From Parietichytrium sp. I65-24A (lineage: Eukaryota > Sar > Bigyra > Thraustochytrida > Thraustochytriidae): a stretch of DNA of 64,000 nt. Shown in pieces: positions 4,033 through 37,735 of the stretch. Position 1 is the first letter of the stretch, and the number at the start of each line of letters is the position of its first letter. Below the pieces are notes generated by a model. The model was not told the DNA's origin, ran no database searches, and was given only the letters and a program-made list of their open reading frames with translations. The DNA is taken from assembly GCA_012862575.1 (NCBI GenBank), contig BLSF01000049.1, forward strand, positions 124,001 through 188,000, read 5' to 3'. Made by a program: the position numbers and the translations under genes.

Positions 4033-7000
4033 ATGCCCGGGTCGAAAGCAGACGCTGCATACGGAAACCTGCTTTTGAACGCCAACAAAACGGGAGCGTT
4101 CAACACCAAGACTATTCAGATCCTGAGCGCACTTCACAACCTGACATTGGGAAAGCTCGATGCTGTGACGGAGCAGAACGCAAAGGAGTGCCAGGAAAAT
4201 TTGGCCGCGCTTTGTGTGCTTTCCAGGAAAGCTGCGGCGAAATCAATAATTTTGCGATCGGTGACCAAGATTCTACTCTCCGTATTCTCAAAGTACAAGG
4301 GATCATCTCTGACGTTGCAGAGCGCGTGCGATCTGGTGTGGAGTTTGGCGTACCATGACTCCACTGTGCAACAATCCTTCTCGGAAACCGGGGTGAGCTC
4401 GGCCGTGTTCGACTGTGCGAAAAGACACCCAAACCACCTGACGCTACTCAAGAGTGCATTTGGCGCAGTTTCGAGTCTCTGCCGGCATCCGCAAAACCAA
4501 TCTATTGCCTTGAGGGCCAGCTTTGTGGGCTTCTTGCTTCAAAGTCTAGGCAACAAGGAGTTTGAGGACCCTGTTCTTCTGCAATACACGCTCGACGCAA
4601 GCGCATCCGTTTGCCATGCTAACGAAGAGAATGGCAAACATTTTTTGGAGGCTGGTGGCGTGAATGCCGTGGTACAGCTTCTACACAGGCACGCAGAAAA
4701 TGTGGCAAACGTACGGTCGGCGTGCATTGTATTGGTCGTTTTGCGCGACCGGAGTGGCGGTCCTCACAAAATAGTTGAAGCTGGAGCCGTGGAGGCCCTT
4801 CAGCGAGCAATTCAGATCCACACTGCAGTCCCAGATCTGGAACATATTCTTTGTGCACTGATGGGTCAACTACTCCGCGAGGTCCCTTCAATGGTAAACA
4901 AGCTCATCCAAGACGGGGGTGTCATAGCCACGTTGGAATGCCTGAGGAGCAACCCAACGCACTACTTTATAGTGGAGGCTGCATGCCTAATATTGAGCGG
5001 CTGTTGTACGGCTGCACTTAAAGAGCAGAGTCATATGCTTGGCCCGCTGAAACAACTCTTGAACACACAAGTTTGGAGTGGCCTAACCGAAGTTCTTTGC
5101 AAACCTCCCTCGCAAGTCCCAAAACAGTACGTCTACGTGTCCGCATTGAAGGTGATTGGTCAATTCTGCAAGGTAGCAGGTGCAAGCGGGATCAAGAATC
5201 TGTTGAAAGACAGCCCCGTCTTGCTGCAAATTATTCTTCGCCTGACATCTGAGATTGACTCTGCTCTGGCTCAGCAGTACACATTCGCGCTCGACTCCCT
5301 GCTCACGAGCGATACCATTCAGGCGCTCGCACTTGCTATAGATGCATTCGCGTATTGCTGGATCTCTGGTGCGAAGAGCGAGTCGGCATCCCAGGTAGTG
5401 AAAGCGTATGGTCTCGTTCAAGCGCTGAACGATGACCCCTACGCTCTACTATTTTGGAGCAAAGTTTCTTCAAACTTTCTATCTCTTGGAGAGATGCAGA
5501 GAGTTGCAAAAGGTTCTCAAAGCCGAATTCACGAGCTTGAGAAAGCTCGCAAAGAAGGAAAGCACCGCACGGACGCTGGCGTGCTCACTCAAACACACGT
5601 ATTATTTTCGCTACTCACTGGCCTCCTCCTCTCTAGAGAAGACCGGAAAGTTGCCCCGGATCTGCTTGATCAGGATCTTTTCTGGGGCGAAGTCGCAGCA
5701 TTCGCTCTTGCTTGGCTCCGCGATCTGCGAAGTGTGGAGCACTTTCAAAAACTATATTCTAACAATCAAGAGGTCGAGAAACTCTGTCTCAGAGCCATGG
5801 TCTCAGTCTTGCAATTTCTGGCATGTACCCTTCATAAGGAGCGCCATTTTACGCTTCGAAGCATGGCCGGAAATGGCGGAGTAACCTTGATATTGCAGCT
5901 TCAAAAGGTCATTTCTCAGCTCGGAAACTCGGGACGTCCGAGTACGGCTTCAGACGAAGAAAATCGAGAATCTGCTGCGGAGATCGCACAAGGAGCTGGG
6001 GCAGAAACTGAACTTGGGCTGCTCCGCAACGTTGCCCACGGAGCAACTGCTATCATTCTAAAGTTAATTGGGGCGGGAAACTCCCCGGTTCTTCCTGCAA
6101 AACCCGGCGTTGAGCTCCTTTCGAACGCTTTTGCAACTGTGTCCAACGAAATTCGCGCCTTGGAAGAGGAGAAAATTCGAGCGGCTGAGATCGCCGCCCA
6201 AGCAGCACAGGCACAGGCAGAAGCAGAAGCTGAGGCGCTCAGAGAAGCAGAGTTGGAGGAAGAGCAGCGACGTTTGAAGGAGGCAGAGGGAGGGGTCGAT
6301 GCATCTGATGGAGATCCTGCCAAGCACAAGGGGCCCAATGACTCGCAAGAGAATGACCGCGACCGCTTTGACACGTCGGGAGCAGGAGAGACTTTGGACG
6401 CAACTGAGGACGACAACGACGACGACGGCTGTAATGATGACTCTGACGCTGATGAAAGCGACGATGAAGTGCCTGCCACCCTCGACTACACCGGCGCAGA
6501 CTCGAGCGGGCAGTCGGAAGAAGCCGAACAAACAGCTGCCGAACCTGATGATGAGAAGGCATGGTGCAAGCCGTTTGTCAGACCAGAAAATCTGATGGCT
6601 CAAGCCCGATTTGTTGCCGAAATCCCTGAGCTTTTGCATGATCTGGGCAAGGAAAAGCTTGAGGCGTGTCTTCCAAGCTTGCGACGATCTGACTCCGGAT
6701 TGACTCCTCGGAGCTCTCACAGACCAAACTCTCAAGAGCGCAGATTAGTTTATGATTGGAGCAAGCTCGGAGGAGAAGGCACTGGAAGAGCTCGTAGCGC
6801 AATTGTCACCCCACGGGTTTGCCGTGGAAGCTCTGATCCGGTGCAACAGGCGTCAGAAAAGTCCTTCTTACTATCTTCAGTTGGTTCGTTTCAAGGTTCG
6901 CCTGGCTCTGAGGAGCACTTTCTTCGGTTCGAAAGCAGGTTTGAGTCTGGGAACCTCTCCCAAGCCTTTAAGGCTGGCGACAGGGAGTACGACTTGGTGT

Positions 7001-8919
7001 TGCGGTCTGACCTGCACACCAGGTCGCATCATCAGTGGTTCTACTTTGCGGTCACAAACACGCACTCTGCATCCGACACGGGGCCCGTAGAATACAAGTT
7101 TAATTTGCTGAATATGTCCAAGCCAGGCTCGATGTTTTCTATGGGAATGCAGCCAGTTCTCTATTCGTTAAAGGGCGCGCGCGAGCGAGGAACCGGTTGG
7201 AGACGAAAAGGAACAAACATTTCTTACTTTGCAAATGATTATGAGACGCCTGCCAACACAGGTAAGAACTCAGGTGGGCATTACTACACATTGAGCTTTA
7301 CGATGGAGTTTGAAGAGCCCGGTGATGTATATTTGGTGGCAATGTGTTACCCATACACGTATACCCAGCTCCAGCGATTCTTGACTCGCGCTTGCAGCGC
7401 TGACCAGAGCGACATTTGTCAGCGCGAATTGTTGTGCACCAGTCTCGGAGGCCTCCGATGCGACCTTCTCACAATCACGGACATGTCCTCTACAGCAAGC
7501 GAGATCGCGGCAAGGCCAGCCGTTGTCTTTTCAGCGAGGGTGCACCCCGGAGAAGTTGTGGCGAGCTACATGATGGAGGGCACGATCAAGTTCCTCCTGG
7601 GTGAGAGCGCGCTCGCAAAGCTTCTGAGGAGCATATATGTGTTTAAGGTCGTTCCCATGCTCAACCCAGACGGTGTATATCACGGAAACTCGCGCGTTTC
7701 CCTATCCGGCTGCGATCTCAATCGCGTTTGGTCTAAACCAGAGCCTCACATATTTCCGACCGTATATCACACCAAGCAGATGATAAAGGAGCAGATGGCT
7801 TCGAGAAAAGTGTCCTTGTTCGTGGATTTTCACGGGCACTCGAGGAAGAAGAACATTTTCATCTACGGAGTGGAGTACAAGAAGCAGTCGCTGAATACGC
7901 TGGCCAGTGATCTGTATGGAAACCCAGTTCGTCAATTTCCAAGGCTCGTCGCCGAATCTGCTTTCAGCAGCTCGATCTTCTCGCTTCCTGACTGTTCTTT
8001 CAATGTGAGCAAGTCGCATGCTCAAGCAGCTCGTGTTGTGGTCGCTAGAGAGCTGGGAGTTCGCGCAAGCTTTACAATCGAAGCTTCTTTTTGTGGCGGC
8101 GGTTCCGGCACACTGAATACCACGCTACAAAACAAACACTTTAACGCTGCCCATTACGGTGAACTCGGGGCGGGGATATGCGATGCGCTCTTGAAGCTCA
8201 ACCATTCCAAGCTTTACGCTGCGATGCTTAGCTCGGTTCCCAAATTTGCAGTGTCCTCCATCAGCAATACTTCCTTACATAAGCTCCTTGTTGCCGCTGG
8301 GGAGAGGTCAATCAGCTCCAACAATAACAGTAACAACCATGCTGCCAACACTGGCTCGACTTCGAACAATAACCCCGGCGCCAATCACGCCATCAGCCAA
8401 GGTGGCGGCGAGAGCACCATTCCGTCTGTGCCAGGAACGAAAGACAAGCCACCAGCCCAGTCAAGTGGGGCTTCTTCTTTGTTTGCGACGGTGAAGAAGC
8501 GTGAAAAGATGAAGCTTGATGCACTCCCAGCCGGTTCGAAGCGAAAAATTGCAGTTGCAGCTGTTCAAGGACGAATTAAACCTCGCAGCAGCAAGCAAGC
8601 CCAAGTCATTCCCCTAAGTGTCACAGGTGCTGCGGAAAGTTCTGTCCCGAGCCCTTCAAAAGGAGGAAACAGGTCTCTGATGCAGGAAGCTGGATCAAAC
8701 TGGTCACTCCCGGAAACAGAATCGGACCCTCCCGCGGAGGCGACGTCCAAGAAGAAGCTCCAGAAGCGATTGCTGCAGAAACAAGCCAGCACATCTGGCC
8801 TTGACCCAAGAACCAAGGGAGAATCCCCAGATGTGCTGACGAAAACAAAGGTTACGGCCTCTTCGACAAATTTGAGCACAAAGAGATCGTCTACTGGCAA
8901 TAAATTACCTCTGGTGTAA
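4033..8919 (+). CDS. Cytosolic carboxypeptidase (CCP1/Nna1-like, M14)
   Basis: Very large single-exon protein (1628 aa) of the AGTPBP1/CCP family, zinc carboxypeptidases that remove glutamates from polyglutamylated tubulin and other proteins. Residues 1 to about 640 form helical armadillo-like repeats. About 690-830 is an Ala/Glu/Arg helix followed by an acidic stretch. About 940-1130 is the beta-rich CCP N-domain. The M14 catalytic domain follows with visible active-site residues: HPGE (His1171, Glu1174), DLNR (Asn1230, Arg1231), DFHGH (His1267 as third zinc ligand) and the catalytic FTIEAS (Glu1350). A Ser/Asn-rich, basic tail (from about 1440) is probably disordered. ARM repeats N-terminal to the peptidase are the CCP1/CCP4 layout. 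Its enzymatic counterpart, a TTLL5-like glutamylase, lies about 30 kb away. Substrate preference cannot be read from sequence. Confidence 0.93.
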   Translation: MPGSKADAAYGNLLLNANKTGAFNTKTIQILSALHNLTLGKLDAVTEQNAKECQENLAALCVLSRKAAAKSIILRSVTKILLSVFSKYKGSSLTLQSACDLVWSLAYHDSTVQQSFSETGVSSAVFDCAKRHPNHLTLLKSAFGAVSSLCRHPQNQSIALRASFVGFLLQSLGNKEFEDPVLLQYTLDASASVCHANEENGKHFLEAGGVNAVVQLLHRHAENVANVRSACIVLVVLRDRSGGPHKIVEAGAVEALQRAIQIHTAVPDLEHILCALMGQLLREVPSMVNKLIQDGGVIATLECLRSNPTHYFIVEAACLILSGCCTAALKEQSHMLGPLKQLLNTQVWSGLTEVLCKPPSQVPKQYVYVSALKVIGQFCKVAGASGIKNLLKDSPVLLQIILRLTSEIDSALAQQYTFALDSLLTSDTIQALALAIDAFAYCWISGAKSESASQVVKAYGLVQALNDDPYALLFWSKVSSNFLSLGEMQRVAKGSQSRIHELEKARKEGKHRTDAGVLTQTHVLFSLLTGLLLSREDRKVAPDLLDQDLFWGEVAAFALAWLRDLRSVEHFQKLYSNNQEVEKLCLRAMVSVLQFLACTLHKERHFTLRSMAGNGGVTLILQLQKVISQLGNSGRPSTASDEENRESAAEIAQGAGAETELGLLRNVAHGATAIILKLIGAGNSPVLPAKPGVELLSNAFATVSNEIRALEEEKIRAAEIAAQAAQAQAEAEAEALREAELEEEQRRLKEAEGGVDASDGDPAKHKGPNDSQENDRDRFDTSGAGETLDATEDDNDDDGCNDDSDADESDDEVPATLDYTGADSSGQSEEAEQTAAEPDDEKAWCKPFVRPENLMAQARFVAEIPELLHDLGKEKLEACLPSLRRSDSGLTPRSSHRPNSQERRLVYDWSKLGGEGTGRARSAIVTPRVCRGSSDPVQQASEKSFLLSSVGSFQGSPGSEEHFLRFESRFESGNLSQAFKAGDREYDLVLRSDLHTRSHHQWFYFAVTNTHSASDTGPVEYKFNLLNMSKPGSMFSMGMQPVLYSLKGARERGTGWRRKGTNISYFANDYETPANTGKNSGGHYYTLSFTMEFEEPGDVYLVAMCYPYTYTQLQRFLTRACSADQSDICQRELLCTSLGGLRCDLLTITDMSSTASEIAARPAVVFSARVHPGEVVASYMMEGTIKFLLGESALAKLLRSIYVFKVVPMLNPDGVYHGNSRVSLSGCDLNRVWSKPEPHIFPTVYHTKQMIKEQMASRKVSLFVDFHGHSRKKNIFIYGVEYKKQSLNTLASDLYGNPVRQFPRLVAESAFSSSIFSLPDCSFNVSKSHAQAARVVVARELGVRASFTIEASFCGGGSGTLNTTLQNKHFNAAHYGELGAGICDALLKLNHSKLYAAMLSSVPKFAVSSISNTSLHKLLVAAGERSISSNNNSNNHAANTGSTSNNNPGANHAISQGGGESTIPSVPGTKDKPPAQSSGASSLFATVKKREKMKLDALPAGSKRKIAVAAVQGRIKPRSSKQAQVIPLSVTGAAESSVPSPSKGGNRSLMQEAGSNWSLPETESDPPAEATSKKKLQKRLLQKQASTSGLDPRTKGESPDVLTKTKVTASSTNLSTKRSSTGNKLPLV

Positions 8920-12911: not shown

Positions 12912-15900
12912 ATGTCACAGCAACGCAGGCGCAGGCGGAGCTCCTGCGCCAGCAGCGTGGGAAGCGTGGTGGAAGTACCTGTGGTGGATGAGATGGAGAT
13001 GCCCAATGACGACGGGTCAGAAACTGGCTCGGAGCCATGTAAACTGGGCGGCGAGGACTCGGTGCAGCCGGCGCCGTTGACTTGGCAGCACTCAACGGCG
13101 GAGTGCTGCGTGGATAGTTTGGTAGAATACTTTCTTGCCGTTGCGACAGTCATTTTCACTGTGGATTGTTTTGTCAACCTTGCATTCGCGCTGCACACAT
13201 ATCACAACGCGTGGATCGTCCTGACCTTAATTAATGCGGTGGTCCTTCTTCTGTTTACGGTTGAAGTGCACATGAGGTGGTTTGCGTTTGGCAGGTCATA
13301 TATCCTGGTGGTGTCGAACCTCATGGAGCTCATACTAACAAATTCCATTTTAGGGCTTACAATCACGTTGTGCTACCGTCTCTTGCTGCCGAGCCCAGAG
13401 TTGGAGTGGGACGCCTTGGTCAGCGTGAATGCTTTGTTCAGCCTCTTCTTAATCCTTCTGAGGCTTCGAAGGTTTCAGGATGTTCTTATTGGCGCTTGGG
13501 CGTGGGCGCTCTTGCAAGGTCGCACGTCTCAGCCTGATCGCAAACATTCATCGGACAACGTCCTGGAACTTCTCCGACGCATTCGAAGAAAGTACCCATT
13601 GACAGTCAGAGAGGCTCAAGAAATCAACTGGGCCTGTTTTCTTATCGCCACGAGAAAGCTGTACAATGGTGCTCCGGAGGATGCTACGGGCCAGCTTCCA
13701 TCTCTCTTTGAGGGGCTCGATGAAGAAACCACCAATTGGTTGTTAAATACTTACACAAACGTAGAGGTGAACAACAGGGGTGATAATGGGCAACTTCCGC
13801 CCTCTCCGCTAGCACAGCGTGGTCAGACCAAATCCCTTTCGGGGTCGCCATTCGGAGAAGAAGAGGAGGACGACGAAGAAGAGTTTGACCTTGCGGCGTG
13901 CTCTGACTCGGCTCTCCTCGTTCACTCCGCATCAAGTTCCAGCGAACCTGATTCCGAGGATGCTGCAACCACAGATTCACACCCAGTCAGTGCCGTGGTG
14001 GAGCTCTCTTCTCTCAGACGATCTGGCGAGGACCTTAACAGTGCAGCCGACCAAAGCGGCGCTGCATCAAGGAGGTCATCTCCTCTTCTTTCTGGGCTAG
14101 AGTCTGGCAATGGCCTCACCGCCATGCGGGGCCTGGAACTTGAGCCTTTGAAGATTCCTTTCTCCAATGTAACGCCTATTCCCGAAGGAAATCGTATCAA
14201 CTCGGCTGCGTCATCACCCAGCGCATCAAGGAGGAAGAGCATGACTGGGCGACTATTAACCCCGCTTCGTAGAGCGTCCGGTGGGGCAACAGTTGATACA
14301 ATCTCCGATGGCGAGGTCTTCCTTGACCTCAAATGCAGCCCGGATGGCAGGTCACCACTAACGGAACCCCCGAACCCGTCAGTCGGAAGGCACACGATGG
14401 TGTCCAGCGGGCTCATTTTGCAGGACATTGACGACATTAGAAACTATTTGCTCCTCCACACCGATCTTCCCATGGCGAGGGAGATGACAGACGGAGCTGA
14501 CGCAATTCAGCCGTTGACGGCGCGACATGCGGACGACAAGGACGCTTTCAACTTCGAAATGGCACGGTTCGAGGACCTCGACGATGAAGACCTCGAGGAA
14601 ACGGAGATCACTGGTGGCTCTCCTCCCAGCCGGAGGCTAGGCAGGGGCGGCCCGCGTAGGCACTCCAGATTAAAGCACGCCAGGGCAAGAACCTCACTTT
14701 CTAATCAGGCTGGAACCGCAAGAAAAATTAGAACCCTTGCTGAGCATGCGCGGCTGCGGTCTATTCAGTGGAGTCAAGATGATCTTGACCGCATCAATGC
14801 CCAGATGGACGAATGGAATTTTGATGTCTTTGAGGCTAACGAGTACTCTGGCGGAAGGCCCCTGTCGATGGTGCTTTTTGGGCTCATGCGGAAAAACAAC
14901 ATGTGGCTGACGTTCCCCACTTTTCGCAAGGACACCGTGCTCTCTTTCGTAACATCCATCGAAAACGGTTACAAGGTGGAGAACCCTTATCACAACCGTG
15001 TGCACGCTGCGGACGTGTTACAGACGATGCACTACTTCTTCACGCACGATATCCTCCACAAAGTTGTGTCACCGGTGGATATCCTCTGCTCGTTAATCGC
15101 GGCGGCGATCCACGACTTTCAACATCCGGGAATGAACAATTCTTACCTTGTTGCTACTGGGGACAAGCTCGCCCTTAGGTACAATGACCGCGCGGTTCTG
15201 GAGCACATGCATGTCGCGGCTGCTTTTCAGCTCATGCGAACAAAGCGGTGCGATATTCTACGGTGCGTTGGAGACGCAGAAAAGTATCTCGAGTCTAGAG
15301 AAACGGTCATCCAGATGGTGTTAGCAACGGACATGTCACATCACTTCGAAGGCTTAGAAAAGTTCAGGGCGGAGGTTGTGCAGTACTTTGATGAGAAACT
15401 GAGCAACTCGCGCAAGGTTGGCGTCACGGGCTCGAGCATAGACTCAATATCCGCTCTCAACCTTGCTCCTTCCAAACTTTCAATTGACGTTGACCCTTCC
15501 ACAGAACACTCTGACCTCCCGCCGATTTCGGTCAGGAGAACCTTGCTCAAGACGTCGCTTCATTGTGCAGACGTCTCAAATCCGGCAAAAAGCCCAAAGC
15601 TCTGCCAACAGTGGGCGACGCTTGTCTTAGAGGAGTTTTTTCAGCAAGGAGACAAAGAGCGTGAACATGGCTTGAAAATATCAACGTTTATGGACCGGAA
15701 CAAACCTGCTCTGCCGAAGTGCCAGATTGGCTTCATCACGATCATCGTGAAGCCCTTGTTTGCAACCTATTGCCAATTTCTCACGTCTTTGAAACCGCAG
15801 GTCGATTGGTGCCTCACAGCCAACTTGGCGCATTGGGAAAAGAAGCAGGCCGAGGAAGAGGCGGCGCAGGCGAACCAAGCTGGCTCTCCGCCCCTCTCGG

Positions 15901-16172
15901 CTCAGTATGCGCAACCAAGCCTTGGAAATAAGCGCACTAGCTTTCGATTTGTGAGTGGCCTCAAATCTTCCCTGACAAGGTCCCAGAGTAGTGCGATTCC
16001 AACTCCAATTATTCCTCCAAGCCCTGGAGCAAAGCCTCGAAAGCAGAGGGTCAGCGGAACCCCGCAAATCCTAAGTGGCGGTCTCAGCTCTATCGACTCT
16101 CAAAGCCCGCCATCGTCAAAATTGCTGCAGCGTTCCAGAACGGACTGTGCCATTGACGTCGGTGACTTATGA
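12912..16172 (+). CDS. Membrane cyclic-nucleotide phosphodiesterase with voltage-sensor-like N-terminus
   Basis: Protein of 1086 aa from the first in-frame ATG; the open frame further upstream lacks one. A basic, acidic N-terminus precedes four hydrophobic segments at about 72-95, 97-122, 127-155 and 170-195. The second reads FTVEVHMRWFAFGRSY, resembling the F..E...R pattern of voltage-sensor S2; the third has NLMEL where S3 usually has N..D; the fourth ends LILLRLRRF with clustered Arg. Residues about 210-640 are mostly low-complexity, probably disordered. The class I PDE domain (about 645-990) has HNRVHAADV (694-702), HDFQHPG (734-740, metal ligands), DMSHH, HCADVSNPAK (884 on) and the nucleotide-binding Gln at 938 in KCQIGF. 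It should hydrolyse cAMP and/or cGMP at a membrane. Voltage control is inference; only two or three S4-like Arg are present. Confidence 0.88.
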   Translation: MSQQRRRRRSSCASSVGSVVEVPVVDEMEMPNDDGSETGSEPCKLGGEDSVQPAPLTWQHSTAECCVDSLVEYFLAVATVIFTVDCFVNLAFALHTYHNAWIVLTLINAVVLLLFTVEVHMRWFAFGRSYILVVSNLMELILTNSILGLTITLCYRLLLPSPELEWDALVSVNALFSLFLILLRLRRFQDVLIGAWAWALLQGRTSQPDRKHSSDNVLELLRRIRRKYPLTVREAQEINWACFLIATRKLYNGAPEDATGQLPSLFEGLDEETTNWLLNTYTNVEVNNRGDNGQLPPSPLAQRGQTKSLSGSPFGEEEEDDEEEFDLAACSDSALLVHSASSSSEPDSEDAATTDSHPVSAVVELSSLRRSGEDLNSAADQSGAASRRSSPLLSGLESGNGLTAMRGLELEPLKIPFSNVTPIPEGNRINSAASSPSASRRKSMTGRLLTPLRRASGGATVDTISDGEVFLDLKCSPDGRSPLTEPPNPSVGRHTMVSSGLILQDIDDIRNYLLLHTDLPMAREMTDGADAIQPLTARHADDKDAFNFEMARFEDLDDEDLEETEITGGSPPSRRLGRGGPRRHSRLKHARARTSLSNQAGTARKIRTLAEHARLRSIQWSQDDLDRINAQMDEWNFDVFEANEYSGGRPLSMVLFGLMRKNNMWLTFPTFRKDTVLSFVTSIENGYKVENPYHNRVHAADVLQTMHYFFTHDILHKVVSPVDILCSLIAAAIHDFQHPGMNNSYLVATGDKLALRYNDRAVLEHMHVAAAFQLMRTKRCDILRCVGDAEKYLESRETVIQMVLATDMSHHFEGLEKFRAEVVQYFDEKLSNSRKVGVTGSSIDSISALNLAPSKLSIDVDPSTEHSDLPPISVRRTLLKTSLHCADVSNPAKSPKLCQQWATLVLEEFFQQGDKEREHGLKISTFMDRNKPALPKCQIGFITIIVKPLFATYCQFLTSLKPQVDWCLTANLAHWEKKQAEEEAAQANQAGSPPLSAQYAQPSLGNKRTSFRFVSGLKSSLTRSQSSAIPTPIIPPSPGAKPRKQRVSGTPQILSGGLSSIDSQSPPSSKLLQRSRTDCAIDVGDL

Positions 16173-17267
16173 GATCCCCCACATCAGAATTAAACTTCTT
16201 CGTGTAGAATGCCGTTTCTGTTTTACAATGTGTTTTGAAATAGAAAAAGTTAAAATTGAATCGGCAAATATATCAAACTTTGTTTACAAGTTCTTTCTGT
16301 GTCAAGTTCATCGGCTTTGTTAGATTTCATTGCATCCCGAGTGTCGTGCCGTTCCATACTCGTCGCTGACAAACCTGGATCGTGATGACAGAACTTGAGC
16401 TTGAACGCTCCCTTTCGTTCTTATATCGACTCTGCGGCCACAACATAGCCGTGGTTGCAGCAGTCCGAAACTTTGTGGCCCCTAATTTAAATGTTGGCTC
16501 CAGCTTTGTTGGCTTTGAATTGGCGACCGCCAGCACTCACAGCTAATACGGATAACTGAACCATTCTTGTTCTGTCTGTTCTGCTCTGCACAGAATCGGC
16601 ACAGTCACATCAGTGAACTGGAATTGAGACTGTGTGCTTGTATGCCCCAAGTCTCGGGTTGATCGAGTCGAGCACGCAAAATGACGAGACCCACTCGCTT
16701 CGCAATTGACAATTCCATGCAGACGAGGCAAGCCAAAGAATTCCTTCTTCTTTTTAGTGTTCCTACTCTTTCAAAACGAGCGAGGGATTTGTAGATCACA
16801 TCCTCGTCGCTCACTCGCGGCACCACATCCCTTCGGCGCGGATCTATTCTAACTCCACCTATTTAAAACATTAGCACCCGAGAGCAGCGCGGCGGATGGG
16901 CCATCTGCTAGCGCGCCACATACGCTGGCGGGTAGGACTTGACCACGTCTCCGAAAGTCTCCAAAACATACGCAGACTAGCGACTACGGTAGATAGCTGC
17001 CTAAGGCGGATGGACGTGCCATTTGATGATTTGATGTTTTGTTTTATGTGCAGACTGAAAGGAGTCAAAGGAGCTCCAGGTTGCAAGTGTTTGCTGTGTG
17101 GAACAAAGCCGGAAGGCTCTGCAGATTCGAGTCGGAGAGCAGAGCGGGAGAGTAGACCCGGACGAAGAGGCGGATCGAGGGGCAAAAGGACAAAGCCTTT
17201 TCGTCGGAGGGCGTCAGAAGCAGACCCGGAAGCAACCTTGCGAGGCAAAGAAAGCCTTTGCACGAAG
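16173..17267. other. Intergenic region and possible 5' extension
   Basis: About 1.1 kb between two same-strand genes. The frame of the downstream 7TM gene stays open from an ATG at 16896, which would add 124 Arg/Gly-rich residues with no recognisable domain. I prefer the signal-peptide-like ATG at 17268, so most of this is probably UTR and promoter. Confidence 0.5.
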
Positions 17268-19001
17268 ATGAAGTACTTGCAGCGCTCGAGCGTGGCAGCG
17301 TGCTTGCTGCTTGCGCAGCTGGCAGTGTCTTTGCCGGCACTGCGAGGCGAGAGGAGCGATGAGGTGTCCCTAAGGAGGCTGAAAGACGCGGTGAGGGAGG
17401 CGGGATTGGCGTCAGCCTTCGGACAGGTTGGAGCAATGCTGACGATAATCGCGGGAGCTGTCGTGCTCGCAAAGAGGAACTCTCCGGTTTTCAAGTACTC
17501 TTGCTGGAACACTTTCGTCCTGCCTGGACTTGCAGTGCTTCTAGCACTCAACATCGCATCCGTGCTGACGGCCATAACCGAAGCAGAAGTGTGCTTGCCA
17601 TCTCTTCAGATTCTCACTCTTGGAACGTCGCTTCTGAGCTCGCTTGCAATGGTAGTCATAGTTCCAAAAACGAAGGGAATGGCCGCCGACGTTAACGTCC
17701 GACGCGCGGTGGCCATTAGCATACTCATCGTGAATCTCCTTGTCGTCCTGTTGCTCGTCATCGCGTCCACCGACGGTTCACCAGCTTCCATCCAGCTTAG
17801 TGGATGCCGCCTCTACTTTTCTTCGGTGAACCCATATCTAAGCTGCTTATACTGGTTCTGCGCAATGATTTGCCTTGTTACGCTGGGCGCTGCAATATAC
17901 AATGCAAGAAGGCCATCCATCGCCTACGAGGGGGCCGCAACAATTTGCCTCCTCATTGCAGCAACAGCGCCCATTGCTTTTGTGATTGCTCTGCAGGTCG
18001 GACGGCCAAAGATATCATCCGATGCTTCACACGAGATTTTTGCTGGACTCAATTTTGTCACCACCGTGGTATTCATCGTGGGGTTTGTGCTCTTCAAACT
18101 TTACAAGTCAAGCATGTCTGAGCGCGAGGTTTGCCAAGCTCTGCAAATGTACAGCCGAAAGACAAGTGGAAGCCTCGGATGGGCGCCCCAGGACGGCGGG
18201 CACAACCTCATCCTCGACACAAATAGAAAATACAGTTGGGCCGCAGCAGGATCTCTGCGCGGAATGAGCCCAAAGGGAGACAAAAGCAAGAGGAAGTTCA
18301 TGGACGACTTTGAAAGCGAGAGCAAAGCTGTGTCCAAAACCATTACTCCTCACGAAGAAGCCGTCGTGCACGTCGACAGTGCTGCCGCTCTGAAGGCAAC
18401 GGTCAAGCTACAAGCTGTCGCTCGGGGCCGTAGCACTCGTCAGCGAACCGAAAATTTGTTCAGATGGAATCCATCTTCAGAAAAAGCATCTTCCGCTGGT
18501 TTGGAGACCACGTCTCAGAACTCGTCGGACGCTGTTGTGCAAGGGGCTGTCACGAAAGTGCAAGCTATCCATCGCGGGAACCTCACTCGTAAAGCGCTCA
18601 ACTATGTGAAAATGCAGTCGGCTAAAGCGGCGGTGAAAATCCAAGCTCTTCACCGCGGCAATCGAGCTCGGAAAGAGTTTAAGACTCGTCATGATATTCT
18701 TCACGGTGGGAGGCTCAGAGAGAATCTTTCTCTCGAGCAAACGCCAGTGGCCGAAAATGCTCAACTAGATCTAAGCCCTCCGTCAAGCCCCTCTAGCGCG
18801 GCCAGTTCAGGAAGCTCTGGAAAGTCAAAGACTCGTTCTGCTGCCTCCCAAATCAGGGCAAAAGTTCAGAACGTACGGTTGCCCAAGCTTAACCTCAAGA
18901 GTCTTGCAAGAGGAAGAGGAAGATCACACAGTGGTGGATCGAAGGAAGCGAGTGAAGACCATGAGGGCACGAGCGCAACCTCTAATTTGTCTGTAGTTTA
19001 G
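17268..19001 (+). CDS. Class C GPCR-like 7TM protein with IQ motifs
   Basis: Protein of 577 aa if it starts at the ATG giving MKYLQRSSVAACLLLAQLAV, a signal-peptide-like segment. An in-frame ATG at 16896 is the alternative (701 aa). Seven hydrophobic segments follow (about 45-290). Loop motifs fit family C (GABA-B/metabotropic) receptors: KRNSPVFKYS after TM1, a Cys before TM3 and another in the second outer loop (SGCRLYF), and a YNARRP...YEGA stretch between TM5 and TM6 like the family K/R..P...NE motif. The extracellular N-terminus is only about 30 aa, so there is no Venus-flytrap ligand domain. The cytoplasmic tail has three IQ-type motifs near 375-395, 427-445 and 453-472 (KLQAVARGRSTRQR, KVQAIHRGNLTRK, KIQALHRGNRARK), predicted to bind calmodulin. 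Calcium-regulated signalling is inferred. Confidence 0.7.
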   Translation: MKYLQRSSVAACLLLAQLAVSLPALRGERSDEVSLRRLKDAVREAGLASAFGQVGAMLTIIAGAVVLAKRNSPVFKYSCWNTFVLPGLAVLLALNIASVLTAITEAEVCLPSLQILTLGTSLLSSLAMVVIVPKTKGMAADVNVRRAVAISILIVNLLVVLLLVIASTDGSPASIQLSGCRLYFSSVNPYLSCLYWFCAMICLVTLGAAIYNARRPSIAYEGAATICLLIAATAPIAFVIALQVGRPKISSDASHEIFAGLNFVTTVVFIVGFVLFKLYKSSMSEREVCQALQMYSRKTSGSLGWAPQDGGHNLILDTNRKYSWAAAGSLRGMSPKGDKSKRKFMDDFESESKAVSKTITPHEEAVVHVDSAAALKATVKLQAVARGRSTRQRTENLFRWNPSSEKASSAGLETTSQNSSDAVVQGAVTKVQAIHRGNLTRKALNYVKMQSAKAAVKIQALHRGNRARKEFKTRHDILHGGRLRENLSLEQTPVAENAQLDLSPPSSPSSAASSGSSGKSKTRSAASQIRAKVQNVRLPKLNLKSLARGRGRSHSGGSKEASEDHEGTSATSNLSVV

Positions 19002-20594: not shown

Positions 20595-21063
20595 GAATTT
20601 GGACGGACGGATGGCCACAGTTAGTCACAAGGCATCGCGGTGGGACTGCTTGCTGTTGGTGGGCACCACAGCCCTACCTAATCTCCATAGCCAGGGCTCT
20701 AGCCCACTCCGTGGCTGTTTAACGTTTTCGCTAAGCTCCAACGGTCGCCTCTTGAACAAAGAGACAACAAATGAGACAAAGAGATCACATCGCTACAGCC
20801 GAAACGTCAAACCAGATAACTCTGTGAACTGAGACAACCGAGACAATTGAAAACTCGAATACAAGTGCTGAGCCATCTGCATACAGCCGACTCGCAGAGC
20901 TCGCCAAGGTCCGTCAGCTAAACAAACGCTGCTGGCTGTGGCAAGTGCGGCTCCAAGTGTCGGGCTGGCGGACGGGGAGGTCGAAAGCTTGTTTGTGACT
21001 GTGGGCTTGCGGGGCGCTCGGCCGGCAGCCGGGCCCACTGCACCAAGTGTGCAAGCAGGGACG

Positions 21064-24000
21064 ATGGCGACTCTGGACGAGCAGGAGCAGAATAACAGCC
21101 TGCATGAATGGTTTAAACATAAGAAACTGAGGCCGCTCTCGGCGTCAAGATGGGACTCGCCGGCTGCACTGGCGAGGTTTTTAGAAGACAGGGGCTGCGA
21201 TACGTCGCATTGGGGATACGAAAGAGAGAGCAAGAGCGTGGAGTCGCTCTTCAGAGAGCTAAAGTCTTACTCTTGCTCGCTTTGCGAGATCATTATAGAT
21301 GCCGAGTCAAACAGCGAGGCGCTCAATCAGGCGGACGCGCAAAATCGAACGCTAGTACGCTGTGTCACGTCGCTACGTGTTCGATTTGTCGATAACGAGG
21401 CGGTTAACAAAGGAAACACGTTATTGCAGCAAGTTTCAAAGAAATCAGGCCAGCAAATGCTCACCTCACCATCGATCAGGCTCAAGATTGCCGAGCCTCC
21501 GTTTAAAGCTGCTGAGCGGCTTTTGTACAAACTGAGTGGTCTATCAGTCCGGCGCGAGAGATCTAGGTCGAATGCTCGCCGAGCTTCTTTATCCGAAAAA
21601 GGCGTCCAGTACCGCCCTTTGCAGTTTGATAATCCTCTCGAGTATGAGTCACTTTCCTCCACGACCTATCCAACCTTGACAACGGTATATCGAATCAACG
21701 TTCTCACGCTCTTCCTCAAAGAGAGTTTTAGCGGAGCGCTTCAAATTATTAAAAGTGGTGCGAGTAGCCGAGGCAAGCGATTGGACTGGTATGAACCTGC
21801 TGTTGCGCGATCAGCCTTCTCTCATGTTGAAGTCCAAGACCAGCTTCTGAGCGCTGCAGAGCGAAAGAGAGACGAGTCAAGGAAAAGCGCCATCGCATCG
21901 TTCAAGGGCGCGAGTAATCAGGAACGCCGCGGCTCGCGACAAGATGGTCACGAAATTTTAGATGCCGGGGCAAATCATACCCTAATTCATTTAACTCACT
22001 CCCAACGATACACCGGGCCAGCCTCCGTTGCAGGGCATTCGTCAAAATTGCACCAAGAGTCGGTCTTTGCAGATTTTGTGGAAAAACTCCAAAGATTTTT
22101 CGAGCAGCAACGGCTTGCGCGAGCAGTAGAGTTCCTGAAAGCAATAGATTGGTGGAAGGAGATGCCAAAAGAAGAAAGTTCCGGATCAGGAGGTCAAGGT
22201 TCGAATTTGCCTGAAAAGGAGTGCCAATCGGCAAAGCATACAGGGTTATACGGGAATTTAACCCCCCGGCTGATTGAGCGAACCAAGACGATAATGCCCA
22301 AGCACCTTGCAACAGAATTTAAGACAATGCTCAGTGGCAGCCGTTCTGCGACTCCTGGAAGCTCTTATTTCAAACGAGTGCAGACGAGCTTCCAGATTCA
22401 TACTGTTTTCCGCGCTATGTCTTTCGATATGCAGGGCGAGTTGTACCCACTAGCTGATTGCCAGTGGTTCAAGCATATTCAGAGCTGCCGCAAGGGCTCT
22501 TTTAACAAGAAAGCCGCGAAGGAGCTCACGATCAATACACTGTACCTGTTCTATTTGTGGTTAGAGAAGGCGGGACTCGAAACTCAAAATTACCCGGAGA
22601 ATGTGTTTCGCAAACTCTGTCTGGAAACTATTGACGAATCCTCTGAGCTTCTGTTCCATCAACAAACAAGGAAACTAGAGAGGGTATTGCGTATCGCCAA
22701 AGTCCTCATATATGACAGGGGCGCCGATTCCGTAAAGAGCACGCCTGCAACGGACAGAGAAGACTTTTTAGAGGTTCCTCCGGAGTTCACGAAAAGAATC
22801 GTCGTCCAAAAGATTTTCAAAAAGCAGAATGAAAGTGGAAAAGACTCCATTGAGATGACATTTCAGTTCGTAATGAACAAGACGGCAAAGGGGAGTCAGT
22901 ATATGCAAAAGGTGGTGAAAGACGTGGTAAACTCCAATCTCAAAAAAGCAATTTACAGGCAGGATGACGAAAGTGAGTATCACTCTGATAATCCTGAAAT
23001 ACAGTCGATGTACATGCTGGAGCCCAAAACAGAGGTCAACGTTTCCAAATCTTACCCTGGGTTGCTTAGTCGCTACTATTTGCATCATTTCTGGGTTCGG
23101 GTCGGAGGCATCCCAACGGATACAAATTTTTGGACCGTGGAAGAGAAAGACGGTTTGAAGACAGTTTGCTATTGGATGTGGACGGACAACGTCCACACAG
23201 ACATATTCGATCATCGTCCAAGGATGCTGGAGCACACGGTGAAACAACAAATTTGTGATGAAAATGCAAAGCACTTTATGGAAATTGCATTGCCTCGTAT
23301 TGAGGGACAGAAGAGTAAAACGCAGACTTTGCTACGGCCTCAGCTGTTGAAGCGCAATTCGTTAAAGGAGGATGTACAGGAGAGCTATGTACGTCTCTTC
23401 ACAGGCTTGATATCCGAGGGATGTAAGACGGATGACTGGCAACTCGTCGCGTACGCAACGAAAGAATTACTCCACCGAAAACGAAATCAGGCGCTCTCCA
23501 GTCCTGAGGAAAATTTTCTTCTTCCGCATCTCATTCGTGCTCTGGACCAAAAATCCTGGAACTCTGCACGTGCTCTGCTGGACGAATACTTCAAAATTGC
23601 GACCTGCTACATACGAGACGGTGAGAGCCTAGACCATTCGCACAAGCGCAAGAGAAGGGAGACGTTGATTAAAGTTTACAACACCGTCTTATGCATTGGC
23701 TCTCTGATTGACAACCTCCAGCAAAGCGTCACAATGAAAAATTTGCTAGTGCGCGACAAAGTTGAGCGGAGCTCGGCAGCATCGCTTTGTATTTTACCAG
23801 CCATAGCCCGAGGCCACGCCAACATGCTCCGGTTTCTGCTGAAATTAGTTCCGCATTTTGTCAATGGGCCTTTCTATCCGACTTTCGAATCCTCCCAAGT
23901 GCCGGGATGGGAAAATGCAGAAAGTGTACGCAAGAGTCTTGGCCTCAATTCGTGGATGTTGAAGGCGCTGACGTCTACACGCACGTCTACAAAGCGTAGG

Positions 24001-26553
24001 CAAGACAGGAAACAAGATGCAGAACAAGATGCCGAGCAAGATGACGAGAAAGAGCCGCAGGAAGATGCCAACCTGGCTGGCCTGGAACTGGGGCTATTCA
24101 TTCCCGGCTTTGCCGACAGGATTCTCTCCCCGGTGGAAGAAGGAATAGGGCACAAAAGCTACAGTGCGATCTTAAAGAGTTCGTTCAAGACATTTCTCGG
24201 ATCTCTGAGGCGAGGACAAAGCAAAGTTTACGCAGATGAAAAGTCATCAAAGAGACTGACATGCCCGGAGCGCTATGTTCCGTTCGGATGGGAGGGTCTC
24301 TTGAACCACATCTATCCTGCTAAAGAGCTAAAGACGTCGAACCTTCTCGACGCGAGGATGACTGACGTCCTTGGCGTTGCTTTGAGCGCTTGCCCGCCTG
24401 ACACTCCTCTGTTTGTCAATTACCTGCAGCTCTATCTTTCGTCGATTGTGTTTGTATGTTGGAACGACAACACAGTGTTTGGATACGAGCTAGAGTCCAA
24501 GCGGATGATCATTCGCTTGCTCGAAAACTCTCACTTCTCGTTCCACGTTGCCCTGCTTATGACGCAGCAACTTCGCCGGCTGTCAAGGAGTAAAAGCTAT
24601 TACAGCACCGAGCTGACAGTTCTGCATGATTGGATGAATACGCAATGCGAGGTGATGCTTTCGATGTGCAGTTCACAAGAGGAGGCCAATGCGATTTTGT
24701 TTGAGCAAATCAGAGTCGAGTCCGAGCTGACGACTGATTTGGTTTTTTCTGATGCGAAGAAGTCTTCGAAGGTGAAACACATAGAGCATTTTGAAAGGCA
24801 GGCGAGCTCAGAGACTTCGGCGCTGTACTTGGCAGTGCTCTGTAAAGTCGAGAGGGTCGTAGCTTCGAACTGGTTTCAGGGGACAAACGAGAAGCGCCAA
24901 TGGTTTTACGAATGGCATCGCACCGACATGTTCCCGCAGGTTTATGAAGACGTTGCGAGCTCCTCCGTGTCAACACTGCTGATTACCTTGATGCTCTTCT
25001 TAGAGCTCATCTTCATGATGCCGGTTTGGTGCGCCGCTCCTTTTTCAATGCAACTCAGCAAATGGCGAGATCGTCTTGCGATTAATTCTGCGTACTTCAA
25101 ATTCCTCAGCCACACCATGCTGCATTTGGCATTTGTGCTTTACTTGCTCGTTTTCGTCTCCTCGCCCGGTCCAATGAAGGCTTCGAGCCCATATACCGCG
25201 CCTGAGCCTCTCAGTTTCCAGGAGTTCATTTTGTATTTCTGGGTATTAGGTTTAAGTTCTTCTGAGGTTCAGGCGATATATTTTGACCCGCGTAGCTACC
25301 TTTCTAGCGCGCTTAATTTCGTTGACGGGGTCTACCTGGCTTGCTTCTTGGCCGCATTTCTGTTCAGAAATCTTTCCCTGCACCTTTCAGAGGTCGAGTC
25401 TGCGGCTGGATACAACGAGACAGCGTCGGAGACGCTTGACTGGTTTGGCGAAGATGGAGATTGGACGTCATATGCGGCCGCAAGCATCTCAGAGGTGTTT
25501 CTGGCGCTTGGTGCAATACTGGCGGTGTATCGCACGGTTCATCTGTGCAGCTATCATTCTGGCCTTGGGCCTCTCTATGCTTCGATCAGGAAGATGTGGG
25601 TCGACATATTCCTTTTCAGCTTCTTGCTCATCGTCTTGCTCGTCGGGAACAGTGTAGCTCTTGCTTTCGTGCTGCGTAGATATGCAGGTGATGACGGGAA
25701 CTTTATGCACAGCGCTGAAGAGACAACGGTCATGGAGAGCGGGTTGCTGTCACCATTTCTCATCTTAATGTCGAGTATGTTCAGTGGCGAACTGCCTGAC
25801 GAATTTATTTCTCTCACTCAGACGGATCTCGTGATTTGGTACATCGTTATCATCTTTCACTTGATGACTGTTTCAATCGTCCTTCTCTCTCTCTTGATTG
25901 CCATGATGAACCGAACCTACGAAGAGACGCAGGGCGCAGCCAAGGTGGTTTATCTCAACGGACGGATGGAGCTAATCAAAGATTACGCATGTCTGCCCGT
26001 CGTTCCTCCGCCATTGAACGTCATCACAATACCTTTTGAGATTCTCGCGCTTGTGATAAACCACTACCGCTTTGGCAACAGCCGCGCGGTTGGCGGAGCG
26101 CACAGGGACGGCGCACTCGGCGTTCAAAAGGGTGATGGCTTCGCCGTCCCGATGAGGGACGAGATTAAGAGCAAGAGAAAGTATCAGGTGAATAATTCGA
26201 TGCGGAAAATTCGATGCACGGTTATGAGACGATATTTTGTGAAGGCCAGAGCAGAGCTAGGTATGAACAGTGAGTGCGCACCTGACAAGCCATCTAATGA
26301 TAATATACACGAGACTGATTACGGGTGGTGGACTTCTGATTACGGCGGTCATTCCAGCAGCACAGCGCATCGGTCTTTCGCAGCAAGCCCAGCAGTTTCT
26401 GAATACCTCAAAGCAGCTGCAGATGCTCGCCGGCGCGCTGAAGCTGATTTTGATGAAGACGTTGGCGTTGACGACGAGGAAGAGGACGAAGATGAAGACG
26501 AAGACGAGGAAGGGATGGATGCATTGGACGAGGATCCAAGCGCGAGCTGTTGA
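21064..26553 (+). CDS. TRP-family-like cation channel
   Basis: Giant single-exon protein of 1829 aa. The start is the first in-frame ATG (MATLDEQEQNNSLHEW); the frame is open 126 bases further only through GTG. The C-terminal third carries an ion-transport domain: six main hydrophobic segments between about 1299 and 1620, a pore-helix-like LLSPFLILMSSMFSGELPDEF (about 1560-1580, interrupted here only by position) and S6 ending in SLLIAMMNRTYEETQ, which matches the LLNxLIAMMxxTY signature of TRP channels. No regular S4 Arg ladder is seen, consistent with TRP. A basic segment with dispersed helices and a very acidic tail (about 1790-1825) follow. The first about 1290 residues have no family I recognise: no clear ankyrin repeats and no TRPM SLOG pattern. 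Likely a non-selective cation, perhaps calcium, channel; subfamily and gating are open. Confidence 0.8.
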   Translation: MATLDEQEQNNSLHEWFKHKKLRPLSASRWDSPAALARFLEDRGCDTSHWGYERESKSVESLFRELKSYSCSLCEIIIDAESNSEALNQADAQNRTLVRCVTSLRVRFVDNEAVNKGNTLLQQVSKKSGQQMLTSPSIRLKIAEPPFKAAERLLYKLSGLSVRRERSRSNARRASLSEKGVQYRPLQFDNPLEYESLSSTTYPTLTTVYRINVLTLFLKESFSGALQIIKSGASSRGKRLDWYEPAVARSAFSHVEVQDQLLSAAERKRDESRKSAIASFKGASNQERRGSRQDGHEILDAGANHTLIHLTHSQRYTGPASVAGHSSKLHQESVFADFVEKLQRFFEQQRLARAVEFLKAIDWWKEMPKEESSGSGGQGSNLPEKECQSAKHTGLYGNLTPRLIERTKTIMPKHLATEFKTMLSGSRSATPGSSYFKRVQTSFQIHTVFRAMSFDMQGELYPLADCQWFKHIQSCRKGSFNKKAAKELTINTLYLFYLWLEKAGLETQNYPENVFRKLCLETIDESSELLFHQQTRKLERVLRIAKVLIYDRGADSVKSTPATDREDFLEVPPEFTKRIVVQKIFKKQNESGKDSIEMTFQFVMNKTAKGSQYMQKVVKDVVNSNLKKAIYRQDDESEYHSDNPEIQSMYMLEPKTEVNVSKSYPGLLSRYYLHHFWVRVGGIPTDTNFWTVEEKDGLKTVCYWMWTDNVHTDIFDHRPRMLEHTVKQQICDENAKHFMEIALPRIEGQKSKTQTLLRPQLLKRNSLKEDVQESYVRLFTGLISEGCKTDDWQLVAYATKELLHRKRNQALSSPEENFLLPHLIRALDQKSWNSARALLDEYFKIATCYIRDGESLDHSHKRKRRETLIKVYNTVLCIGSLIDNLQQSVTMKNLLVRDKVERSSAASLCILPAIARGHANMLRFLLKLVPHFVNGPFYPTFESSQVPGWENAESVRKSLGLNSWMLKALTSTRTSTKRRQDRKQDAEQDAEQDDEKEPQEDANLAGLELGLFIPGFADRILSPVEEGIGHKSYSAILKSSFKTFLGSLRRGQSKVYADEKSSKRLTCPERYVPFGWEGLLNHIYPAKELKTSNLLDARMTDVLGVALSACPPDTPLFVNYLQLYLSSIVFVCWNDNTVFGYELESKRMIIRLLENSHFSFHVALLMTQQLRRLSRSKSYYSTELTVLHDWMNTQCEVMLSMCSSQEEANAILFEQIRVESELTTDLVFSDAKKSSKVKHIEHFERQASSETSALYLAVLCKVERVVASNWFQGTNEKRQWFYEWHRTDMFPQVYEDVASSSVSTLLITLMLFLELIFMMPVWCAAPFSMQLSKWRDRLAINSAYFKFLSHTMLHLAFVLYLLVFVSSPGPMKASSPYTAPEPLSFQEFILYFWVLGLSSSEVQAIYFDPRSYLSSALNFVDGVYLACFLAAFLFRNLSLHLSEVESAAGYNETASETLDWFGEDGDWTSYAAASISEVFLALGAILAVYRTVHLCSYHSGLGPLYASIRKMWVDIFLFSFLLIVLLVGNSVALAFVLRRYAGDDGNFMHSAEETTVMESGLLSPFLILMSSMFSGELPDEFISLTQTDLVIWYIVIIFHLMTVSIVLLSLLIAMMNRTYEETQGAAKVVYLNGRMELIKDYACLPVVPPPLNVITIPFEILALVINHYRFGNSRAVGGAHRDGALGVQKGDGFAVPMRDEIKSKRKYQVNNSMRKIRCTVMRRYFVKARAELGMNSECAPDKPSNDNIHETDYGWWTSDYGGHSSSTAHRSFAASPAVSEYLKAAADARRRAEADFDEDVGVDDEEEDEDEDEDEEGMDALDEDPSASC

Positions 26554-35929: not shown

Positions 35930-37735
35930 ATGGAGCGCGAGGAAACAACAAAGGCACGGGCGCGCATGCCCAAGTTGAGCAAAATGAAGCTCCCGCTGCG
36001 GAGGTCCAGTAAGGTGATTGCCATCGCGGACGCTGACAAACCGTCATCGGCAGCATCGGGCAATAATAACAAACCGAAGGCCACAAGAGCGCGGAGAATC
36101 GAGTTTAAACCCGTAAAGAGCCTCGACAGTGTAAAGTTAATGAGCGAGGACGCTCGAATGCAGTTAGTGCCCACAAGCCAGAGAACAAACATGCCAAACC
36201 ACGTTTCTAGCTGCACTTGCCCACAGTGCAGGAAGGCCAGGAGGCAAAGTGAAAACGCACCTGTCCAGTTGCGCTACAAGGCAGGAATCCGCCTCATTGA
36301 AGCAACGATGGAGAACAACAATTTCATTCGCACAAATAAGGACGACTGGAATGTGCTGTGGGTGAGTGGGTCCCTAAAGATCACTATATTCCAGACTTTG
36401 CGCAGGTTCCAGAAGGTGAACCAGTTTCCACGCACATATGAAATCACGCGAAAGGATCAGTTGTGTCGCAACATTACACGCATGCAGCAGATTCACGGAA
36501 TGAAACACTTTGACTTTGTTCCAAAGACCTATGTACTCCCCGAAGATCGGAACATATTCGACGAAGAGGTACGAAATGTGTTCTTGAACGGAGCTCTTGA
36601 CGCAAAGAGGGCGAGTTCCGAAGAGAACAACCTCTGGATAGTGAAGCCGGCTGCAAGCGCTTGCGGTAGAGGTATCTTCGTGACGGACAATGTGGCTGAA
36701 ATTCCGACAGGAGGAGGCGAGGACAGCAATGTCATTGTGTCTCGCTATATTTCGAATCCGTTGCTCTTGGACGGACGCAAGTTTGATCTTCGCATTTACG
36801 TCGGAGTTACTTCATTCTCTCCTCTGCGGATTTTTATTTATGAGGAGGGCCTTGCTAGATTGACAACGCAGCAATATAGCAATGACATCGACTCTCTGAA
36901 GAACCGAATGGTTCACCTAACGAATTATTCTGTTCAAAAGTTGAGCGCTGACTTTGTACAAAACAACAGCCCAGAAAATGAGGCAGGCGTTACGGAGAAC
37001 GAGGCTGGAGGTGTTAATGGAACTAAAAGTTCGAGCGAAAACGGTTTGCCCAGTGCAGAGGGATCGAATAAGTGGTCACTGCATACCTTCCGAGCGCGGC
37101 TCGCACGAATGGGCCACGACGTTGACGCAGTATTTAGGTCTATCGAAAGTGTCATCGTTAAAACCCTTATTTCTATAGAACCGCAGGTTGTCAGAGCGAT
37201 GGATATGCATTTGCGGCATCCATCGAGCGCATTTCAGCTCTTTGGGTTTGACATTCTCATAGACGAAAGCCTCAAGCCATGGCTCTTGGAAGTAAATCTC
37301 GGGCCGTCCCTCTCTTGTGACTCCTCTCTGGACCTTAATGTCAAGAGCTCAATGATCGCTGATTTGTTGACTTTGTCTGGAATTCAAGCAGTGGACATGC
37401 AACGGGAGCGAATCAAGGAGGACTTCAGCGCTGGGCAACGGAATGAGGGTGCACCAGGCGCACGTGGCGGCGGTTCTGTGCCAATACCATCTGCTCGAGA
37501 AGCAAGCCCGGCTGTGCTAAAGAAGTACGTCAGGCAGCTGCGTGATGAGCAAGGTAGGTGCGGAAAGTGGAAGTGCATTTACCCGACGCAAACTTCATTT
37601 GTGTACGACCGATTTTTTGATAAGAAAGGGCTCAATCAAGCCATCGTTCAGCATCTTAGTGCAGCGACGTCAGAGTCAGACAAAACACGGATCGCCAAGA
37701 AGCTCACTCGCGCAAAAACGACGGATGGACTGTAG
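35930..37735 (+). CDS. Tubulin polyglutamylase, TTLL5/TTLL4-like
   Basis: ATP-grasp ligase of 601 aa, adding glutamates to tubulin side chains or other targets. A basic disordered N-terminus (1-75) with a CTCPQC pair precedes the TTL domain (about 115-480). Family motifs: NVLWVSGSLK, WIVKPAASACGRGIF (ATP lysine, about 236), VSRYISNPLLLDGRKFDLR, YEEGLARLTTQQY, MVHLTNYSVQK, NKWSLHTFRARL, FGFDILIDESLKPWLLEVNL (about 438-457, metal-binding Glu/Asn) and the DLNVKSSMIADLL helix. These agree best with TTLL5 and TTLL4, initiating or side-chain glutamylases. An Asn/Glu-rich insertion (about 345-380) splits the domain where TTLL5 has a short loop. The basic C-terminus (after 540) could be the microtubule-binding segment. 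The CCP deglutamylase in this window would oppose it. Confidence 0.93.
   Translation: MEREETTKARARMPKLSKMKLPLRRSSKVIAIADADKPSSAASGNNNKPKATRARRIEFKPVKSLDSVKLMSEDARMQLVPTSQRTNMPNHVSSCTCPQCRKARRQSENAPVQLRYKAGIRLIEATMENNNFIRTNKDDWNVLWVSGSLKITIFQTLRRFQKVNQFPRTYEITRKDQLCRNITRMQQIHGMKHFDFVPKTYVLPEDRNIFDEEVRNVFLNGALDAKRASSEENNLWIVKPAASACGRGIFVTDNVAEIPTGGGEDSNVIVSRYISNPLLLDGRKFDLRIYVGVTSFSPLRIFIYEEGLARLTTQQYSNDIDSLKNRMVHLTNYSVQKLSADFVQNNSPENEAGVTENEAGGVNGTKSSSENGLPSAEGSNKWSLHTFRARLARMGHDVDAVFRSIESVIVKTLISIEPQVVRAMDMHLRHPSSAFQLFGFDILIDESLKPWLLEVNLGPSLSCDSSLDLNVKSSMIADLLTLSGIQAVDMQRERIKEDFSAGQRNEGAPGARGGGSVPIPSAREASPAVLKKYVRQLRDEQGRCGKWKCIYPTQTSFVYDRFFDKKGLNQAIVQHLSAATSESDKTRIAKKLTRAKTTDGL

Follow-up and report, generated by a model that had tools for sequence, protein, structure and literature searches.

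Here, we describe a gene in a 64,000-nucleotide stretch of the genome of the thraustochytrid Parietichytrium sp. I65-24A (contig BLSF01000049.1, positions 124,001 to 188,000 of the forward strand; hereafter, the window). Judged on its sequence, the gene product would on balance be a membrane-bound class I phosphodiesterase (PDE), probably selective for cyclic AMP (cAMP), whose N-terminal module of four helices derives from a voltage-sensor domain (VSD). The gene consists of one uninterrupted frame of 1086 amino acids plus a stop codon at 12912-16172 of the + strand, counted from the first ATG (12912); the open stretch itself begins at 12810 and is closed by the stop codon at 16172. Searches of the organism's own genome covered 42.5 Mb in 172 contigs and used a set of 574 open reading frames (ORFs), in which duplicates from overlapping loci are counted. 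Gene content marks the genome as eukaryotic; a search for omega-3 PfaA, a thraustochytrid marker, gave no score above the cut-off. The N-terminus of the window protein had no second match in this genome up to E 10. Scans of viral and prokaryotic genomes likewise gave no close relatives; short-pattern matches occurred in 2 and 13 stretches, of which none were confirmed.

Hydropathy analysis placed four hydrophobic segments, at residues 66-84, 101-119, 131-149 and 167-185, N-terminal to the PDE domain. This arrangement, i.e., four hydrophobic helices ahead of a complete class I PDE domain, had been proposed in a preliminary description of the DNA and was upheld by hydropathy, by the Pfam PDEase_I match and by intact catalytic motifs. 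The S1-like helix (residues ~66-90; 13107-13181, + strand, as are all features of the gene) contains D85. It is followed by an S2-like helix (~101-125; 13212-13286), which is also covered by VSD profile alignments, an S3-like helix (~131-153; 13302-13370), which is covered by the S2-S3 profile described below, and an S4-like helix (~167-201; 13410-13514). The even number of helices, the basic first 20 residues and the basic S2-S3 loop are consistent with an N-in/C-in topology, and both termini and the PDE are predicted to lie in the cytosol.

The charge-transfer centre typical of VSDs is present in these helices, with F115 and E118 in S2 and E139 in S3; R122 is also kept in S2. The S2-like F..E...R motif was found in helix 2 as F115TVEVHMR122 (13254-13277), the acidic S3-like N..E in helix 3 as N136LME139 (13317-13328), and a basic cluster in helix 4 as R184LRR187, each at the place given for it in the preliminary description. 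Across 42 VSD rows from the same genome, some of them partial or near-duplicate, acidic residues make up 100% of the acidic column in S2 and 98% of that in S3, and basic residues make up 81% of the R/K column in S2 and 93-95% of three columns in S4. E139 is unusual in that most VSD rows have D at this position, E occurring also in a small pore-less VSD protein (L045). The pattern F..[ED]...[RK], followed after 8 to 20 residues by N..[DE], was picked after the preliminary description had already pointed at it; it was present in 25 of 35 VSD-containing ORFs vs 3 of 532 others (with seven of the 574 entries, i.e., copies of the window protein and ORFs of L001, set aside). When the module was shuffled 50000 times in blocks and 50000 times in full, the same pattern arose in 20 and 60 of the shuffles, respectively.

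Over S2-S3, the module is very probably a VSD by descent. A profile of this region built from 41 VSD rows of the same genome scored the corresponding segment at 21.6 bits, a value reached by none of 5000 shuffles (maximum 12.7). The score was 20.4 bits on the trimmed 165-residue domain, and 15.2 bits on the full-length protein (E 4.6e-4, 574 sequences). By comparison, the best of 563 whole ORFs of Escherichia coli K-12, a control set that comprises 51 ORFs with at least four predicted helices and 405 helices altogether, scored 5.1 bits, and none of 12 further PDE ORFs from the same genome exceeded 1.2 bits (L043, which bears a VSD, was left out). Using a broader VSD profile with 14 own-genome seeds, the window frame, which occurs twice among the 574 ORFs, was found at E 3.1e-4 and 4.9e-4, above six real channels that were not among the seeds, with the best non-channel ORF no lower than E 1.9. 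When 5000 full and 5000 block (helix-by-helix) shuffles of the 165-residue module were compared with this profile, none of the former and one of the latter did as well, and with a channel profile none of either kind did. The broad-profile alignment spans S1 to S3 only. Later VSD profiles aligned the S1 region onto S2 as well, as a second domain, and the register of the S1 helix is therefore unsure. The VSD-like nature of the module, as originally proposed, can accordingly be stated as homology over S2-S3, an S1 assigned by position and partly by alignment, and a retained charge-transfer centre. As a separate observation, a weak alignment was seen between the S1 region (13062-13200) and the S2 portion of the VSD profile (FTVD), pointing to a possible internal repeat or to an unsure register.

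Several results weigh against derivation from a VSD. The S2-S3 cut was made after the first alignments had been seen. A profile of enzyme-linked VSDs performed weakly, since 15 of the 5000 full and 46 of the 5000 block shuffles matched the real score, and an Hv1-like profile failed (1.9 bits; 482 full and 879 block shuffles as good). Pairwise comparison was no more than suggestive, in that a phmmer search of the own-genome ORFs ranked a channel (L029) first at E 0.017, with an antisense non-channel ORF second at E 0.063, and hhalign returned a probability of 14% (P 0.0019). The Pfam Ion_trans profile, a check suggested in the preliminary description, reported no match to the module up to E 10. 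However, hmmscan likewise missed Ion_trans in L048 and L044, both of which were matched in the genome-wide Ion_trans search, so that the missing match is weak evidence. In a phmmer search of the PDB, no VSD structure was matched by the N-terminus. Single-sequence AlphaFold models had low confidence without an alignment (predicted local distance difference test, pLDDT, 48.6 and 55.6), and residues 21-64, just ahead of S1, hold 11 acidic and one basic residue, which is of no help to an N-in topology. As to the fold, these models carry little information: the second (161 residues, pLDDT 55.6) consisted of four long helices, and a Foldseek search with this low-confidence model gave seven matches up to E 10, none of them with E <= 0.001. 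The best PDB match of the N-terminus, an adrenergic receptor at E 3.6, was rejected as chance.

The S4-like helix is the worn part of the sensor, and the caution first voiced that it might be degenerate proved well placed. Of the cluster R184LRR187, R184 and R187 alone keep the register, and the place of a third basic residue is taken by D190, so the helix (RLRRFQD) is without three or more basic residues at three-residue spacing. An S4 profile of 40 rows, which also counts against a VSD origin, scored -0.8 bits, with 3740 of 5000 shuffles as good, and left this region of the window protein unaligned. In a MAFFT alignment containing the window protein as a row, its S4 pairs with that of the Hv1-like proteins of the genome as R..R..D, so that R184 and R187 correspond to the first two Hv1-like arginines. 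Because there are two in-register arginines and an in-register aspartate, any gating charge should be small, and the module is therefore best seen as a reduced or modified sensor.

The catalytic domain was readily identified by PDEase_I (PF00233), with E 1.2e-78 at residues 693-965 (14988-15806), this being the sole Pfam match in the window protein up to E 10; homology to PDB entries begins at ~622-626. The catalytic motifs are intact, i.e., HNRVHAAD (HNxxHxxD), HDFQHP (HDxxHP), ADVSNP and QIGF (QxGF), and they include the metal-binding His and Asp residues and the invariant Gln of class I PDEs. The best PDB matches were two chains named just “Phosphodiesterase”, followed by PDE4B. ADVSNP resembles the motif of cAMP-type PDEs, by a specificity rule that we assume to apply, and the enzyme is probably cAMP-selective. 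A tree of 12 own-genome PDE cores had one starred fork and says little; in the catalytic alignment of the PDE ORFs, the row of L009 was left out of use.

Between the end of S4 (residue ~201) and the PDE lie ~420 residues if counted to the start of homology detectable in the PDB (622-626), or ~490 to the start of the Pfam match. In voltage-sensing phosphatases, the linker from S4 to the enzyme is short. Residues 300-630 (13809-14801) are rich in Ser and acidic residues and, from their composition, probably disordered. A short LDxxTxxWL motif at residues 269-285 (13716-13766), hereafter the WL motif, has similar counterparts in five further PDE proteins of the genome. With a profile of these five seeds, which were selected by eye, the window protein was the best match beyond the seeds and copies (E 0.019-0.026; domain E 0.045-0.067), and by regular expression the motif was found upstream of the PDE in three of 13 other PDE ORFs. 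This motif resembles an autoinhibitory helix of the PDE1 or PDE4 type and might be one, but searches did not bear this out. PF08499, the PDE1-type N-terminal region, matched the genome once up to E 10, elsewhere than in the window gene, and a six-sequence profile of the motif matched no PDE in the PDB, but only I-CeuI (E 0.26). The WL motif is the sole candidate coupling element that was identified, and a coupling role for it is possible.

We consider that the VSD-derived module would bring the hydrolysis of cyclic nucleotides to the membrane and may transmit a slight conformational bias to the enzyme via the S4 extension and the following WL motif. S1-S4 domains of transient receptor potential (TRP) channels respond to lipid or ligand, and the module might respond weakly to voltage, or instead to lipid or ligand. 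We do not favour real sensing of voltage, possible though it is, because of the two in-register arginines, the in-register acid and the long linker; sensing may thus be weak, modified or lost, and we regard a functional sensor as rather unlikely. In a working voltage-sensor PDE, for which the odds seem to us similarly modest, R184 and R187 would move past F115, E118 and E139, the S4 extension and WL motif would release or block the PDE, and voltage would set the rate of cAMP breakdown. Consistent with such a sensor are the intact charge-transfer centre, the R..R..D pairing with the Hv1-like S4, and the presence in the same genome of a VSD-cyclase and of a PDE-like/VSD/cyclase fusion, but the S4 that fails its profile and stays unaligned, and its distance of more than 400 residues from the PDE, speak against it. 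Evidence from TMEM266 falls on both sides. This proven sensor resembles the window protein in its pore-less S1-S4 layout, intact charge-transfer centre and in-register acidic S4 residue, and EAG and ERG channels also have an in-register acid after the S4 arginines (extracts of PMC6392501). Unlike the window protein with its two arginines, however, TMEM266 keeps three S4 arginines, and where the window protein has its enzyme, TMEM266 has a C-terminal tail that is predicted to be disordered (extracts of PMC6392501).

Conversely, the module might be a plain four-helix anchor that merely resembles a VSD, in which case RLRR would simply follow the positive-inside rule at the end of the last helix. 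RLRR does come after 17 mostly apolar residues (167-183), as in a stop-transfer sequence, and other PDEs of the genome bear other membrane N-termini, e.g., six helices in L014. The S2-S3 profile score with its shuffle and E. coli controls, together with the polar S2 and S3 residues at VSD spacing, nevertheless makes a plain anchor improbable. We think it highly improbable that the module is a VSD-derived proton or cation pathway of the Hv1 type with an attached PDE. A hydrophobic S1 with D85 and the pore-less S1-S4 layout would suit such a pathway, but the Hv profile scored just 1.9 bits, and the S4 motif RxWRxxRxxH of protist Hv proteins (extracts of PMC10377628) is found in the three Hv1-like ORFs of the genome and not in the window protein. 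These three ORFs are L046, L047 and L049, of which L049 matches Hv1 structures.

In the genome, 16 PDEase_I matches were found in 14 frames, together with 98 Ion_trans matches at E <= 0.001. In L048 (2398-5169, + strand, contig C27), a VSD whose S4 is complete is fused to a class III cyclase, with an extra hydrophobic segment before the cyclase. L043 (924-5414, + strand, contig C31) is a 1497-residue frame in which a PDE-like domain, a VSD with a full S4 and a class III cyclase follow one another in this order; inspection of the alignment by eye suggests that the PDE-like part lacks the His and Asp that bind metal. Fusions of voltage-sensor parts with cyclic-nucleotide enzymes thus occur in at least two other genes, and the window protein, the VSD-cyclase L048 and the fusion L043 may form a circuit.

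Other proteins of the genome show related arrangements. L044 (2091-4280, + strand, contig C108) is a Na/Ca exchanger (Na_Ca_ex twice) with a VSD-like segment between its halves (Ion_trans E 4.7e-15), and L045 (2247-3206, + strand, contig C30) is a 320-residue pore-less VSD protein with an S3 glutamate and a reduced S4 that is, by eye, the nearest analogue of the S4 described here. In the very long frames L010 (517-8325, + strand), L017 and L021, cyclase domains lie N-terminal to a PDE (by Pfam in L010, by eye in L017 and L021). The PDE L014 (982-4050, - strand) has six N-terminal helices, which weakly resemble the membrane region of adenylyl cyclases (AC_N E 0.0085). Within the window, the gene adjoining that of the PDE (16896-19001) encodes a multi-helix protein with ~8 hydrophobic segments and an IQ motif match, and 20938-26553 encodes an Ion_trans protein of 1871 residues with a weak polycystin-type match. 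A cytosolic-carboxypeptidase-type peptidase (4033-8919) and a member of the tubulin-tyrosine ligase family (35930-37735) are both of tubulin-modifying types; that they occur together in the window may be coincidence.

Comparable layouts are known from several systems. Ci-VSP and its relatives likewise place a pore-less S1-S4 module on a cytosolic enzyme (extracts of PMC10651576 and PMC10377628), whereas the window protein has a class I PDE rather than a phosphoinositide phosphatase, two in-register S4 arginines and a very long linker. VSD-guanylate/adenylate cyclases of stramenopiles and alveolates, such as Phytophthora PPTG_13136, which L048 resembles in layout, also combine a VSD with a cyclic-nucleotide enzyme (extracts of PMC12223298). 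These VSD-cyclases make cyclic nucleotide, whereas the PDE of the window protein destroys it. Like the window protein, CAPE (PDE-multi-helix-cyclase) joins a class I PDE to several membrane-spanning helices, and fusions with its domains have been reported in Saprolegnia and related stramenopiles (extracts of PMC8115329); the word “voltage” appears nowhere in the main text of that paper (PMC8115329). In contrast to the window protein, the PDE of CAPE is N-terminal and a cyclase is present. L043, with the same domain order, is a closer match to CAPE than is the window protein. The sensor of the choanoflagellate rhodopsin phosphodiesterase is a rhodopsin and not an S1-S4 module. As here, that protein fuses a membrane sensor to a PDE (extracts of PMC8774190).

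VSDs are known from channels, proton channels, voltage-sensing phosphatases and the sperm Na+/H+ exchanger (extracts of PMC10651576 and PMC13095418), and also from protozoan cyclases (extracts of PMC10651576). The VSD enzymes described in extracts of PMC10651576 and PMC12223298 hydrolyse phosphoinositides or make cyclic nucleotides, and “phosphodiesterase” is absent from the main text of two VSD reviews (PMC10651576, PMC13095418). Among the matches listed from the open-licence literature of PubMed Central, as far as these extracts go, we found no voltage-sensor PDE or VSD-PDE fusion. It would be a doubtful, if attractive, conclusion that a PDE controlled by voltage through a two-arginine S4 operates beside VSD-cyclases, such that within one membrane both synthesis and hydrolysis of cyclic nucleotide would be set by membrane potential. 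With a domain of VSD descent attached to a PDE, the reuse of voltage sensors would reach as far as the off-switch of cyclic-nucleotide signalling. Such a protein would also be a natural experiment on the smallest number of S4 charges with which an enzyme-linked sensor can be left, and might offer a scaffold for putting cAMP breakdown under voltage control.

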